From positions 1 to 64,000 of the forward strand of contig WTGY01000030.1 of NCBI GenBank assembly GCA_011523365.1: a DNA stretch of 64,000 nt, written 5' to 3'. Below, piece by piece: positions 1 through 63,075 of the stretch. The notes beneath the pieces are model-generated. The model was not told the DNA's origin, searched no databases, and saw only the letters and a list, made by a program, of their open reading frames with translations. The number at the start of each line of letters is the position of its first letter. Position 1 is the stretch's first letter. The stretch is from Caldilineaceae bacterium. GTDB lineage: Bacteria > Chloroflexota > Anaerolineae > Caldilineales > Caldilineaceae. The position numbers were made by a program, and so were the translations under genes.

Positions 1-51
1 GCGGGGGCGGAGCCCCCGCACAAGGGAGGGCCGAATAGGCCCGACCGCCCA
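1..51 (+). repeat. Hairpin core of dispersed repeat module, copy 1
   Basis: This 51-nt segment is identical to the core at 52871-52921 and differs at one base from the core at 24300-24350. It folds as two hairpins: an 8-bp stem (GCGGGGGC/GCCCCCGC) closed by GGA at 1-19, then GGGCC-GAATA-GGCCC inside a longer GC-rich arm. The window begins exactly at the core, so the roughly 310-bp body seen in the other copies presumably lies to the left. Short direct repeats of the GGTCAG/AGTGGTCAG type follow at 58-90; similar ones follow copy 3. Confidence 0.85.
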
Positions 52-105
52 AAAGTGCAGTGGTCAGAAGTTAGAGGTCAGTGGTCAGAGGCTGCGAGTC
101 CATCC

Positions 106-164
106 TTTTGGGGTGCGTTTTTGCAGTTGGGATGCTGGCATTGATTGGTGAAACGCAGTACAAT
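106..164 (+). promoter_or_regulatory. Putative sigma70 promoter with conserved upstream motif, repeat copy 1
   Basis: TTTTGGGGTGCG begins at 106. A weak -35 (TGGCAT, 136-141), a 17-nt spacer and a good -10 (TACAAT, 159-164) follow. The motif lies 30 nt before the -35, the same spacing as in the modules at 24464 and 53043. Transcription would start near 171, about 110 nt before the first gene of the operon. The -35 is poor, so the call leans on its parallel with the other two copies. Confidence 0.45.
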
Positions 165-23912: not shown

Positions 23913-24038
23913 GTTGCGCTCCTCGCCTTCGTTTCCAGGTCAATTGTCGACTTTTCGCCAAAATTGGAGGGCGAACTGCCATCTCATTGGGCCTCGATCG
24001 GATAGAGGTCGGGGGGATTGGGGACAGATTGCTTTTGG

Positions 24039-24350
24039 GGGTGCATCGCTGATTTGGGGTGGGAACAGTCAGGCGGGGAGCCGGTGCCAGCAGTGGATTA
24101 AACAGTTTGCCGTCTTCTGGCGAGACGCAGTGCGTGTGCCCGGCCGTACGGTGGAGTTCGTCAGTCGGGGGTGCGAGGGCAGGCACCTACGGGGATCTGA
24201 TGGGGCTGGCGGGACGTGGTCGGGCCGGACACGTTCGATCAGGCACCTGTTACGAATATCGACACCAGGTCGATGAGGCATGTTGTTGGGGGGGGCGTTG
24301 CGGGGGCGGAGCCCCCGCACAAGGGAGGGCCGACTAGGCCCGACCGCCCA
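24039..24350 (+). repeat. Dispersed repeat module, copy 2 (body plus hairpin core)
   Basis: This segment aligns with 52589-52921 over its whole length, at roughly three-quarters identity by eye. Shared blocks include GGGTGCATC at the left edge, TGGGGTGGGAACAGTC, GGCCGTACGGTGGA, GGGTGCGAGGGCAGGCAC, GGGGATCTGATGGGG and GTTACGAATATCGACACCAG. It ends in the 51-nt double-hairpin core at 24300-24350, where the only difference from the other cores (A to C) lies in the second loop. Copy 3 carries about 14 extra bases creating GCAGGC-ACAAG-GCCTGC. No frame is clearly coding, although one (YEYRHQ(V/I)DEACCW) is open in both copies. Confidence 0.85.
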
Positions 24351-24463
24351 AATGCGAGGAGAGATGAGAGAGGAGCAAGTAACACCACTTCGTTCGCCGG
24401 AAATGGGATGGTGAACTGGCCGCGGCCTGGTTTCCACCAGAGGTATGCGAATATTCGCCCTCC

Positions 24464-24522
24464 TTTTGGGATGCACGCTTTTTGGGCAACCGTTTGCTCA
24501 CCCCCCCTTATTGTGTTAGCAT
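24464..24522 (+). promoter_or_regulatory. Sigma70 promoter with conserved upstream motif, repeat copy 2
   Basis: TTGCTC (24494-24499), a 17-nt spacer and TAGCAT (24517-24522) with an extended TGT form a sound promoter. TTTTGGGATGCAC (24464-24476) lies 30 nt before the -35. The same motif, with TTCGCC 10 nt ahead of it, precedes the promoter at 53072. Transcription would start near 24529 and drive the zinc-ribbon/M42 operon. Confidence 0.6.
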
Positions 24523-52357: not shown

Positions 52358-52588
52358 ACTTTCGCCGTCATGTCACTATACGAGAAACTCGCTACGGGGT
52401 CGCGTCAGGACCTTGTGAATCCGAAGGCGCAGCAGAAGGCTGGGTAGACTCCGGTTGCAGAGAAACAGGCTCAACAGGTATCCAAGGATCTTCTTCGGAG
52501 GCAGATTCGAGAGGTTGACTGGATGGGAATACGCCTGGGAGATCACGGCAAGGCATCAGGAGGGTTGTCCCTGCATTCAAGTGGTGTA

Positions 52589-52921
52589 GGGTGCATCATA
52601 GATTTTGGGGTGGGAACAGTCTGGCGGGGAATCAGTGACAGCGGTGGCTGGCGTTGTAAACCGTCTTTGGGCGAGGCGCAGTGCAGGCGCCAGGCCTGGC
52701 CGTACGGTGGATTCCGTCAGTTGTGGAGGGTGCGAGGGCAGGCACAAGGCCTGCACCGACGGGGATCTGATGGGGCAAGCGGGACGCGGTCTGGCCAGAC
52801 ACTTTCGAATGGGCACCAGTTACGAATATCGACACCAGATCGACGAGGCATGTTGTTGGCCGGGGGCGTTGCGGGGGCGGAGCCCCCGCACAAGGGAGGG
52901 CCGAATAGGCCCGACCGCCCA
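52589..52921 (+). repeat. Dispersed repeat module, copy 3 (body plus hairpin core)
   Basis: This aligns with 24039-24350 along its length, and its 51-nt core (52871-52921) is identical to the core at 1-51. It carries the extra palindrome GCAGGC-ACAAG-GCCTGC near 52739. The start is marked by GGGTGCATC. Beyond it a short-period repeat (AGTAGTCAGTAGTTAGTGG-like) begins, as after copy 1. No protein is clearly encoded; the open frames in it are short and differ between copies. Confidence 0.85.
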
Positions 52922-53042
52922 GAACTGCAGCAGATAGTAGTCAGTAGTTAGTGGTTAGTGACGGCGCTTCGCCTGAGTCAGAGCTGTTCGCGGACTGACC
53001 ATGGTTTATCTTGTGCCGGAGTTATACGAGGGTTCGCCTCCA

Positions 53043-53100
53043 TTTTGGGATACACACGTGGCGTCGACCTCTTGAAAACAGTATTGGCTGCCCTTATAAT
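53043..53100 (+). promoter_or_regulatory. Sigma70 promoter with conserved upstream motif, repeat copy 3
   Basis: TTGAAA (53072-53077), a 17-nt spacer and a perfect TATAAT (53095-53100). TTTTGGGATACAC (53043-53055) lies 29 nt before the -35, with TTCGCC 10 nt ahead of it as in copy 2. The queG start follows about 210 nt downstream, so the mRNA would have a long leader. Confidence 0.75.
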
Positions 53101-59479: not shown

Positions 59480-59923
59480 ATGCTCAAGAAGGTTGAAGCC
59501 TATATTCGACTTGAAAAACTGACTGAGGTCAGGTCAGCACTGGTGGAGATCGGCGTTCCTGCAATCGATACGGTTGAAGTGCAGGGACATGGCAGACAGA
59601 CCGGCATCAGGTTGGCCGGACGGCACAGCAGCTACACCGTCGACACTTTACCGCGTCTCCGACTGACGGTAGTCGTAGGTGAGGAAGACGTAGCCCATGT
59701 CGTAGAGACGATTCGAGAGACTGCCGCTACGGGAACCCAAGGCGACGGCGCCATTTATGTCTGTCCGGTGGAAAACATCGTCCGGGTCAGCACGGGGGAG
59801 CAAGGCGCCGACGTTCTGGTCTATGAAGGAGACATCGACATCCAAGGAATGCTCTCGCCGCCCCCTGATCTAAGCGATTTCTTTGCCTTCTACCTGGAGA
59901 GGAAGTACAGAATAGAGGAGTGA
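59480..59923 (+). CDS. PII-like nitrogen regulatory protein, copy 1 (variant binding site)
   Basis: A 147-residue PII-family trimer-type protein. It begins MLKKVEAYIR, has GHGRQTG, a T-loop with a Tyr at the position of Tyr51 (HSSYTVDTLPR), TGTQGDGAIYV and VRVSTGE. Compared with E. coli GlnB, the ATP-binding Lys90 is Ala (GDGAIY) and Arg103 is Ser. A 27-residue tail (LSPPPDLSDFFAFYLERK...) follows the usual end. AGGAG precedes the ATG. It lies next to amtB as GlnK does, so it may bind or regulate it, but its nucleotide sensing is probably altered. Confidence 0.8.
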   Translation: MLKKVEAYIRLEKLTEVRSALVEIGVPAIDTVEVQGHGRQTGIRLAGRHSSYTVDTLPRLRLTVVVGEEDVAHVVETIRETAATGTQGDGAIYVCPVENIVRVSTGEQGADVLVYEGDIDIQGMLSPPPDLSDFFAFYLERKYRIEE

Positions 59924-59985
59924 ACGGGGCTCTCTGCCTTCCCCCAGGTCAGAGGAGCTTCTTCTGACACACAGGAGCAAAAGTT

Positions 59986-60378
59986 GTGTTAAAAAAGATC
60001 GAAGCGTACATCCGACATGAGAAGCTGGACAGTGTGAGGCTGGCTCTGATTGAGATTGGTGTCCCCGCTATCGATACCGTCGAAGTCCAGGGGCACGGCC
60101 GTCAGAGCGGAATCAAACTTGCGGGACGGCACAGCACTTACGTCGTCGACACTTTACCGCGTATTCAAATGAATCTCGTTGTAGGTGAGGACGAGGTTGA
60201 CCGGGTGGTGGAGACCATTCAGAGGACGGCGGCCACCGGCACCCAAGGTGACGGCGCCATTTTCATCTGTCCGGTGGAAAACATCATCCGGATCAGCACG
60301 GGAGAGGAAGGCGACGACGCGCTCGTATACGAGGGCGAAATAGATATCTCCGAACATCAGGTCGATCGAGATGGGTAG
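59986..60378 (+). CDS. PII-like nitrogen regulatory protein, copy 2 (variant binding site)
   Basis: A 130-residue paralogue of the preceding gene, about 75% identical over the first 120 residues by eye count. It keeps the same changes, Ala at Lys90 (GDGAIF) and Ser at Arg103 (IRISTGE). The C-terminus differs (EIDISEHQVDRDG) and lacks the long tail of copy 1. The start codon is GTG with AGGAG 8 nt upstream. It lies 62 nt after copy 1 and is probably a tandem duplication in an amtB-PII-PII operon. Confidence 0.8.
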   Translation: MLKKIEAYIRHEKLDSVRLALIEIGVPAIDTVEVQGHGRQSGIKLAGRHSTYVVDTLPRIQMNLVVGEDEVDRVVETIQRTAATGTQGDGAIFICPVENIIRISTGEEGDDALVYEGEIDISEHQVDRDG

Positions 60379-61434: not shown

Positions 61435-63075
61435 TCAGTTCGGATCGTACAGAAAGAACCACTTTACGTTCAGGTACTCGTTGTAGCCGTCGGCCTTCAT
61501 GGTCTGAATGGCTGCGTTGAAGGGAGCGGTCCACGTGCTGCCGGACGTGAAGATCAGGCCGAACTCTTCGGTCGCCAGTGCCTCCCCCACGATCTTGAGC
61601 TTTTCCGGGTTGGCACCAATGTAGCCGCGGCCGGATGCAGCATCGACCAGCACCATGTCTACATCGCCGGCGATCAGGGCCTGGACAGATGCGCCAAAGC
61701 TATCGAGCAGTTGAATGCGGGGGTTGGCCTCGTCGCCGTCCAGAATATCGTACACGGCAGTGTAGAAGCCGGTCGTGCCCGCCTGCGCCCCGATCAGCAG
61801 GGACCCGTCGGCCGCGAATGCTTGCGGCGTATCGAAGCGGTCCTCATCGGCGCGCACCAGCATGAACTGCTGGCTGGTCATATAGGCGTCGGAGAAATCG
61901 ACAACTTCAGCGCGTTCAGCCGTGATCGTGATGCCGTCCATGCCGACGTCGAACTGTCCTTCGGCAACGGCCTGGATCATCGCTTCCCACGAGGTGACCT
62001 GCCAGTCGACAACACAGTTGAGGCGGCGGCAGATTTCGTTGACGGCGTCATATTCCCAGCCGACGGCTTCGCCGCTGCCCGGGTCGATGAAGTTGAGCGG
62101 AATGTAGTCGTTGCCGGTAACGGCAACTATTTCCGCACCGCCCATGTCCGGCAGGCTGTCGTAGATGTCGGCGGCATTGGGATTCGTGAGGAAGAACCAA
62201 CGGGTATTCAGGTAGTCCAGGTAGCCGTCGGCCTTCATGGTGGCTAAGGCGGCGTTAAATGGCGCGGTCCAGGTGCTGCCGGGCGTGAAGATGAATCCGA
62301 ACTCCTCGGTCGCCAGTGCCCCGCCCACGATCTTGAGCTTTTCCGGATTGGCACCAATATAGCCGCGGCCGGATGCGGCATCGACTAGCACCATGTCCAC
62401 GTCGCCGGCGATCAACGCCTGCACGGATGCGCCAAAGTTGTCCAACAGTTGGATGCGGGGGTTCGATTCGTCGCCATCCAGAATGTCGTACACGGCAGTG
62501 TAGAAGCCGGTCGTGCCGGCCTGGGCACCGATCAGCAGCGACGCATCTGCTGCGAACGCGTCCGCCGTGTCGAATCGCTCTTCGTCGGCGCGTACAAGCA
62601 TGAACTGCTGGCTGGTCATGTAGGCGTCGGAGAAGTCCACGACTTCGGCGCGTTCAGCCGTTATCGTGATGCCGTCCATGCCGACGTCAAACTGGCCTTC
62701 GGCCACCGCTTGTATCATCGCCTCCCAAGAAGTGACCTGCCAGTCGACAACGCAGTTGAGGCGGCGGCAGATCTCGTTGACGGCGTCATATTCCCAGCCG
62801 ACGGCTTCGCCGCTGGCCGGGTCGATGAAGTTAAGCGGAATGTAGTCGTTGCCCGTAACCGCAACTATCTCCGCGCCGCCCATATCCGGCAGAGTGTCGT
62901 AGACAACGTTTTTCATGCCGGCGGGGGCGGGGGAACCGGCGGCAGAATCCTGCGACTGGGACGCGGCCTCACTATCCATCCCTGCGGGAGCGCCAGGGAC
63001 ACAGGCGCCCAAGGCAGCCGCCAGCAGCAGTAAGATAGCCAAGGGGCGTAAGATCACTGCGAGTATCTTGTTCAT
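61435..63075 (-). CDS. Amino-acid ABC transporter substrate-binding lipoprotein with two tandem SBP_bac_3 domains
   Basis: A 546-residue lipoprotein. The signal peptide ends at LGAC (Cys25 lipidated), and a linker runs to about residue 58. Two full family-3 solute-binding domains follow with a period of 246 residues (738 bp); each has DMGGAEIVAVTGND, VNEICRRLNC, DGITITAERAEVVDFSDAY and GSTWTAPFNAA. The domains differ at about 19 of 241 positions by eye, mostly near the C-terminal end, with silent changes between the DNA copies. A single binding protein of about 260 residues is the norm. It delivers an amino acid to the permease at 60499-61356. CGGAG lies upstream of the ATG. Confidence 0.9.
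   Translation of the reverse strand: MNKILAVILRPLAILLLLAAALGACVPGAPAGMDSEAASQSQDSAAGSPAPAGMKNVVYDTLPDMGGAEIVAVTGNDYIPLNFIDPASGEAVGWEYDAVNEICRRLNCVVDWQVTSWEAMIQAVAEGQFDVGMDGITITAERAEVVDFSDAYMTSQQFMLVRADEERFDTADAFAADASLLIGAQAGTTGFYTAVYDILDGDESNPRIQLLDNFGASVQALIAGDVDMVLVDAASGRGYIGANPEKLKIVGGALATEEFGFIFTPGSTWTAPFNAALATMKADGYLDYLNTRWFFLTNPNAADIYDSLPDMGGAEIVAVTGNDYIPLNFIDPGSGEAVGWEYDAVNEICRRLNCVVDWQVTSWEAMIQAVAEGQFDVGMDGITITAERAEVVDFSDAYMTSQQFMLVRADEDRFDTPQAFAADGSLLIGAQAGTTGFYTAVYDILDGDEANPRIQLLDSFGASVQALIAGDVDMVLVDAASGRGYIGANPEKLKIVGEALATEEFGLIFTSGSTWTAPFNAAIQTMKADGYNEYLNVKWFFLYDPN

Follow-up and report, generated by a model that had tools for sequence, protein, structure and literature searches.

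A repeated module that stands upstream of unrelated genes in a Caldilineaceae genome is, at a probability that we put at about 85%, a non-autonomous MITE of the ISKra4 kind (p-MULT 4, Mutator-like) that has been inserted in phase with existing promoters. Its copies almost all point along leading-strand replication, whatever the direction of the adjoining gene or promoter. The MITE is new as a family, and its promoter targeting is of a known kind. More tentatively, and at rather less than even odds, we propose that two unrelated MITE families with a common core become established with nearly all copies in the leading-strand sense, through a replication-tied process that would be new for such DDE elements, family 1 being placed relative to both promoter and fork.

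Anatomy of the family 1 element

The window, that is, the whole stretch of 64,000 nucleotides that was analysed, belongs to a 5.67 Mb assembly of 214 contigs (G000). A sequence-only reading had described three modules (1-164, 24039-24522 and 52589-53100), and their common plan of body, core, spacer and 3' motif is indeed shared. The features of the window are the following.

24031..24038, no strand: left target duplication, 8 bp, GCTTTTGG, decayed, matching the right one at 5/8 positions
24039..24478, plus strand: full family 1 MITE copy, 440 bp, with both inverted repeats and the flanking duplication identified
24039..24050, plus strand: left terminal inverted repeat, GGGTGCATCGCT
24294..24349, plus strand: double-hairpin core with compensated stems, shared with the second MITE family
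24467..24478, plus strand: right terminal inverted repeat, TGGGATGCACGC
24479..24486, no strand: right target duplication, 8 bp, TTTTTGGG
24493..24522, plus strand: predicted host sigma70-like promoter, TTTGCT-18-TAGCAT, weak (5 mismatches), -35 box 15 nt beyond the end
52581..52588, no strand: left target duplication, 8 bp, GTGGTGTA, matching the right one at 6/8 positions
52589..53057, plus strand: second full family 1 MITE copy, 469 bp
52865..52920 (also given as 52869..52918), plus strand: double-hairpin core of the second full copy
53058..53065, no strand: right target duplication, 8 bp, GTGGCGTC
53072..53100, plus strand: predicted host sigma70 promoter, TTGAAA-17-TATAAT, -35 box 15 nt beyond the end
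1..120, plus strand: 3' part of a third copy, core at 1-51 and, by eye, right inverted repeat at about 109-120
136..164, plus strand: host promoter-like site found by eye, TGGCAT-17-TACAAT, -35 box 16 nt beyond the end

The window starts at base 1 of contig C125, so that the third copy is truncated there. The two full copies are 81% identical over 350 nt, and the core is 97-98% identical when the copy at 1..120 is included. What had been taken for a conserved motif at the 3' side is present in the modules, as described, and is actually the right terminal inverted repeat.

Within a sample of 1.87 Mb of the genome, containing 120 copies, a strict inverted-repeat test delimits 40 elements at both ends, with a length of 411-500 bp and the termini GGGTGCATCCCA...TGGGATGCACCC; a looser test delimits 46, which were used for the promoter analysis. 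The consensus ends are fully complementary over their first 12 bp and less so further in. The flanks of the two ends agree at 65% over exactly 8 positions, versus about 25% just outside, and flanks paired between different elements, as a control, agree at 23-29%; perfect 8-bp duplications among the copies include GTACCGTC, CAATTGCC, GACTGAAT and ATCCGATT. At three orthologous sites in the relative G011 (opposite C53:4210, C92:18143 and C79:83223), the element is missing. The repeat thus combines the features of a MITE: it is short, has terminal inverted repeats and no transposase gene, is flanked by a duplication of fixed length, and has empty sites. Inverted repeats and 8-bp duplications make it a transposable element, and the promoter is accordingly its landing place and not its cargo.

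Two core-less mini-elements with family 1 ends were also seen, of about 102 bp (G000:C55:18741-18842) and about 160 bp (L138:9097-9256), with target duplications that match at 7-8 of 8 positions. Core-less family 1 elements were considered as an empty host for the core and rejected, only these unrelated 102-bp and 160-bp elements having been found.

Copy number and genomic setting

The module is not limited to three copies: the hairpin-core pattern has 210 matches across G000, compared to 0 for a reversed-pattern control, and a BLAST search of the genome with the module gave at least 42 matches (40 of the 411 first-look candidates scored). The sequence-only reading had proposed a genome search for dozens of copies; far more were found. 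Within the genus, 15 of 17 genomes contain the core (0 to 435 copies per genome); the 44 genomes searched outside the genus all lack it. Among named relatives, all those with the left arm are Caldilineaceae MAGs, the samples for which presumably come from sponges.

Many contigs of G000 begin or stop within a copy (C90, C97, C145, C176, C200, C125 and others), indicating that short-read assembly breaks there and that the copy counts are probably low estimates.

The copies are almost never located in genes (an overlap of more than 60 bp with a called gene is seen in 3/106), and 52/106 lie between divergent genes, a setting that accounts for 28% of the intergenic length. Downstream of the window copies are a 70-codon ORF that belongs to no known family, with two M42 peptidase genes behind it, a gene similar to queG, and a gene of the mandelate racemase/enolase superfamily. 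The suggestion of a vanished micro-protein is not borne out: the frame is open in both full copies, yet mismatches among 66 aligned copies are spread over the three codon positions as 292:286:267. Rfam covariance models at the gathering score gave no match in the window.

Elsewhere in the window, two pairs of direct repeats of about 300 nt (59481-60286 and 61469-62506; 74% and 86% identical, respectively) fall within predicted genes and are possible internal or tandem duplications.

Phasing to host promoters

The flanks of family 1 contain outward sigma70-type promoters, with the -35 hexamer 16 or 17 nt out and the -10 hexamer at 39-40. Among the 46 full copies, 41 have a predicted promoter with a -35 start 15-18 nt beyond an end, where promoters were called under a combined mismatch limit and the distance window was picked after the peak was seen; the background at other distances is about 9% per end, and the same peak recurs in fresh copies from other genomes. 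The promoter is on the right only in 17 copies, on the left only in 16, on both sides in 8, and on neither in 5. No excess of TTGAC was detected at the promoter-free ends of these 46 copies, which indicates that the target is a single promoter and not a palindrome, and rules out two opposed TTGAC half sites as the recognition target. The sigma70 promoter thus belongs to the host DNA, on the far side of the target duplication and outside the element, and is already there at all three element-free orthologous sites in G011, so that the module, contrary to the earlier claim, does not carry a promoter.

Relationship to ISKra4 and other known systems

Elements of p-MULT 3/4 (TnGBS, ISLre2 and ISKra4) insert 15-17 bp upstream of the -35 box (PMC3942029). 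ISKra4 / p-MULT 4 elements make 8-9 bp duplications (Guerillot et al. 2014, PMC3942029) and have inverted repeats of 18-39 bp, and in the ISKra4 group promoters occur on either side where the ends are 83-100% complementary (PMC3942029). The MITE resembles this group in having the promoter about 16 bp outside, on either side with symmetric ends, in its 8-bp duplications, in the terminal C, and in its occurrence in Chloroflexi. It differs in lacking a transposase gene, in its length of about 0.45 kb, in its hundreds of copies and structured core, and in a strict replichore polarity that is unreported for ISKra4. TnGBS / ISLre2 (p-MULT 3) keep the same distance of 15-17 bp on the upstream side of the -35 box, at sigmaA promoters, but they put IRr next to the promoter whereas the MITE uses either end; that the right end should always be at the promoter does not hold here, given 17 right, 16 left and 8 double cases. 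The Correia and MITEAba12 elements (PMC10969869) are similarly short, non-coding and intergenic, with inverted repeats, a target duplication and a location near promoters, but carry promoter sequences internally, unlike family 1 with its promoter in the host DNA outside.

Of the 17 genomes in the genus, 15 contain matches to the ISKra4 transposase, with four exceeding the curated cut-off. When the 12-mer GGGTGCATCCCA was scanned with one mismatch allowed, there were 17-86 matches per genome versus 7-8 for the reversed control. It occurs on both sides of an ISKra4 gene in G013:C20 (at 854 and 2310, around 922-2179), 181 bp 5' of all five ISKra4 copies of G012 in the listed range, allowing for the start of the profile match, and 55 bp 3' of each of the eight C-terminal ISKra4 fragments in G010, a link drawn from the positions of 12-base matches in these three genomes. 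By position, then, the 12-bp end of the MITE, within one mismatch, lies beside ISKra4 genes in sister species; an intact ISKra4 gene in G013:C13 has no match to GGGTGCATCCCA nearby. G000 itself holds only a 34-residue remnant (G000:C31:51822) and no active transposase, so that its copies are probably stranded; an old MITE need not have one in its own genome.

Transposase remnants were named by the sequence-only reading, together with random orientation and location inside genes, as observations that would speak against a regulatory element. None was found within the copies, orientation is not random, and the connection with a transposase lies instead in the terminal repeat shared with ISKra4 genes of sister species. 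Open reading frames between two family 1 inverted repeats, scanned over 2.4 Mb, include no convincing autonomous partner. DDE_Tnp_1 (PF01609) was rejected as a partner since 0/30 loci are flanked by family 1 ends; the sole such locus with family 2 ends, L197 (G015:C1, about 622515), is an IS982 element inside a family 2 MITE. At least 10 similar 308-codon IS982 copies are present elsewhere in G015. ISL3, a candidate partner on account of its 8-bp duplication, is absent from the genus.

A transposase of ISKra4 acting in trans would use the near-symmetric ends of the MITE. Insertion would occur next to the upstream face of the promoter, probably at promoter-bound RNA polymerase, and would place the target duplication at about -52 to -44 relative to the promoter. 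We propose that insertion at this place spares the core promoter and that hundreds of copies are for this reason tolerated by the host.

Replichore polarity

All three modules lie on the plus strand, as had been noticed, and this uniformity extends along whole replichores. Neighboring copies on one contig have the same orientation in 56 of 59 pairs, and orientation agrees with the local GC skew, computed with the elements masked, in 111 of 120 copies of G000; on C183, the one long contig where the skew falls through zero, the orientation flips at that point. Genes agree with the local skew just 48% of the time, and copies lie along replication in divergent (47/52), co-directional (28/29) and head-on (14/15) gene settings. 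Gene orientation is therefore rejected as the cause of the polarity, which persists at head-on genes.

In G011, a single contig of 5.40 Mb, the listed copies between 110 kb and 2.68 Mb are on the minus strand, and those between 2.77 and 5.31 Mb or within the first 66 kb are on the plus strand, with 3 exceptions among 100 listed copies (97/100 concordant). They form two arcs of about half a chromosome each, the orientation switching near 0.09 and 2.74 Mb. Two of the three exceptions coincide with a local reversal of the sampled GC skew. These discordant copies, near 3.25 and 4.06 Mb of G011:C1, look as if segments had been inverted. An unbroken run of 98 listed copies in G015, between 0.55 and 4.18 Mb, lies on the plus strand. 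The dnaA genes (G011:C1:5200548 and G015:C1:4849446) are away from the switch points of orientation and skew; dnaA was therefore discarded as an origin marker, and origin and terminus are placed by skew alone.

A second family with the same core

The core of about 50 nt consists of a pair of hairpins, their stems compensated and their loops exchanged, on either side of the linker ACAAGGGAGG. It recurs in a second MITE family with 8-bp duplications and ends, GTAACTACTAAGCCA, unrelated to those of family 1 (for example, C62:26789, C71:31614 and C98:6329 in G000; also in G009, G011 and G015). No transposase of family 2 was found. Promoter phasing is absent from family 2 (0/29 and 1/14), which makes it a good internal control for family 1. 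Its polarity in G000 is complete (25/25 copies), and cores without recognisable ends are also polarised. In G009, however, a short family 2 subfamily (loci L139-L147) is oriented at about 12:10, compared with about 23/25 for the other copies (hand count). This unpolarised subfamily has the weakest internal G skew, 0.12-0.16 versus mostly 0.25-0.33, and nearest-copy identity does not mark its copies as clearly younger. The core alone thus does not impose polarity, the same core being unpolarised in this subfamily. A KOPS-like motif in the core was dismissed as well, the core having no octamer that departs from the general G-rich skew found outside the elements.

Regulation, targeting and the origin of polarity

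The sequence-only reading took the module for a dispersed regulatory unit, spread or kept for controlling the promoter that follows. It is dispersed and stands before promoters, as that reading held; most copies are directly upstream of one, the divergent setting is in excess (52/106 versus 28% of intergenic length), and the core is structured and conserved. Nevertheless, we consider a regulatory role very unlikely. Target duplications prove insertion, the promoter is as often to the left of the element as to the right (16 and 17 copies), the adjoining genes are unrelated, and promoters occur without the element in G011. The known p-MULT targeting rule accounts for the position of the element, so no function is needed; the repeat is a transposable element, and the data do not support regulation by it.

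That rule leaves the polarity to be explained, as p-MULT transposition does not account for it. Most likely, copies have been established in one sense through either fork-coupled insertion or loss of wrongly oriented copies. The polarity could be set at insertion, by a transposition complex coupled to the replication fork in the manner of Tn7-TnsE or single-strand transposons, for which we would give a little under an even chance. Concordance is nearly complete among copies whose 8-bp duplications are intact, head-on and co-directional genes do not differ, and both families behave alike in G000; on the other hand, fork coupling is unreported for p-MULT elements in the literature searched, family 2, with its other ends, would require the same coupling, and the short subfamily of G009 stands at about 12:10. 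The comparison with the Tn7 TnsE pathway (PMC11406308) extends to target choice tied to lagging-strand replication and to a controlled orientation of the insert; with its 5-bp duplications, different transposition proteins and preference for mainly conjugal DNA, that pathway is an analogy for polarity only. Alternatively, insertion could be random in orientation and followed by loss of those copies that have the G-rich strand on the lagging side, because of fork problems or because the shared module contains an oriented host signal, and this sequence of events we likewise hold to be nearly an even bet. Polarity common to two unrelated MITE families and to cores without recognisable ends would follow from it, and the unpolarised subfamily of G009 is also the one weakest in G skew (0.12-0.16 versus 0.25-0.33), but the core is unpolarised there although the copies are not clearly younger, and core octamers do not exceed the general G-rich skew outside the elements.

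Implications

Our results suggest that a bacterial MITE may keep the promoter targeting of its parent transposon, in which case insertions would fill a genome while sparing genes and core promoters. For assemblies, the element copies break those made from short reads in this genus. The surprising part is the polarity of hundreds of copies, common to two families and unreported in the literature searched, in which reports of ISKra4 MITEs or replichore-oriented MITEs were absent and which lay outside many subscription journals. Being nearly perfect, this replichore polarity serves in uncultured genomes as a marker of replication direction and of local inversions. It also raises the question of how the replication fork is sensed, whether by a DDE element or by the host.
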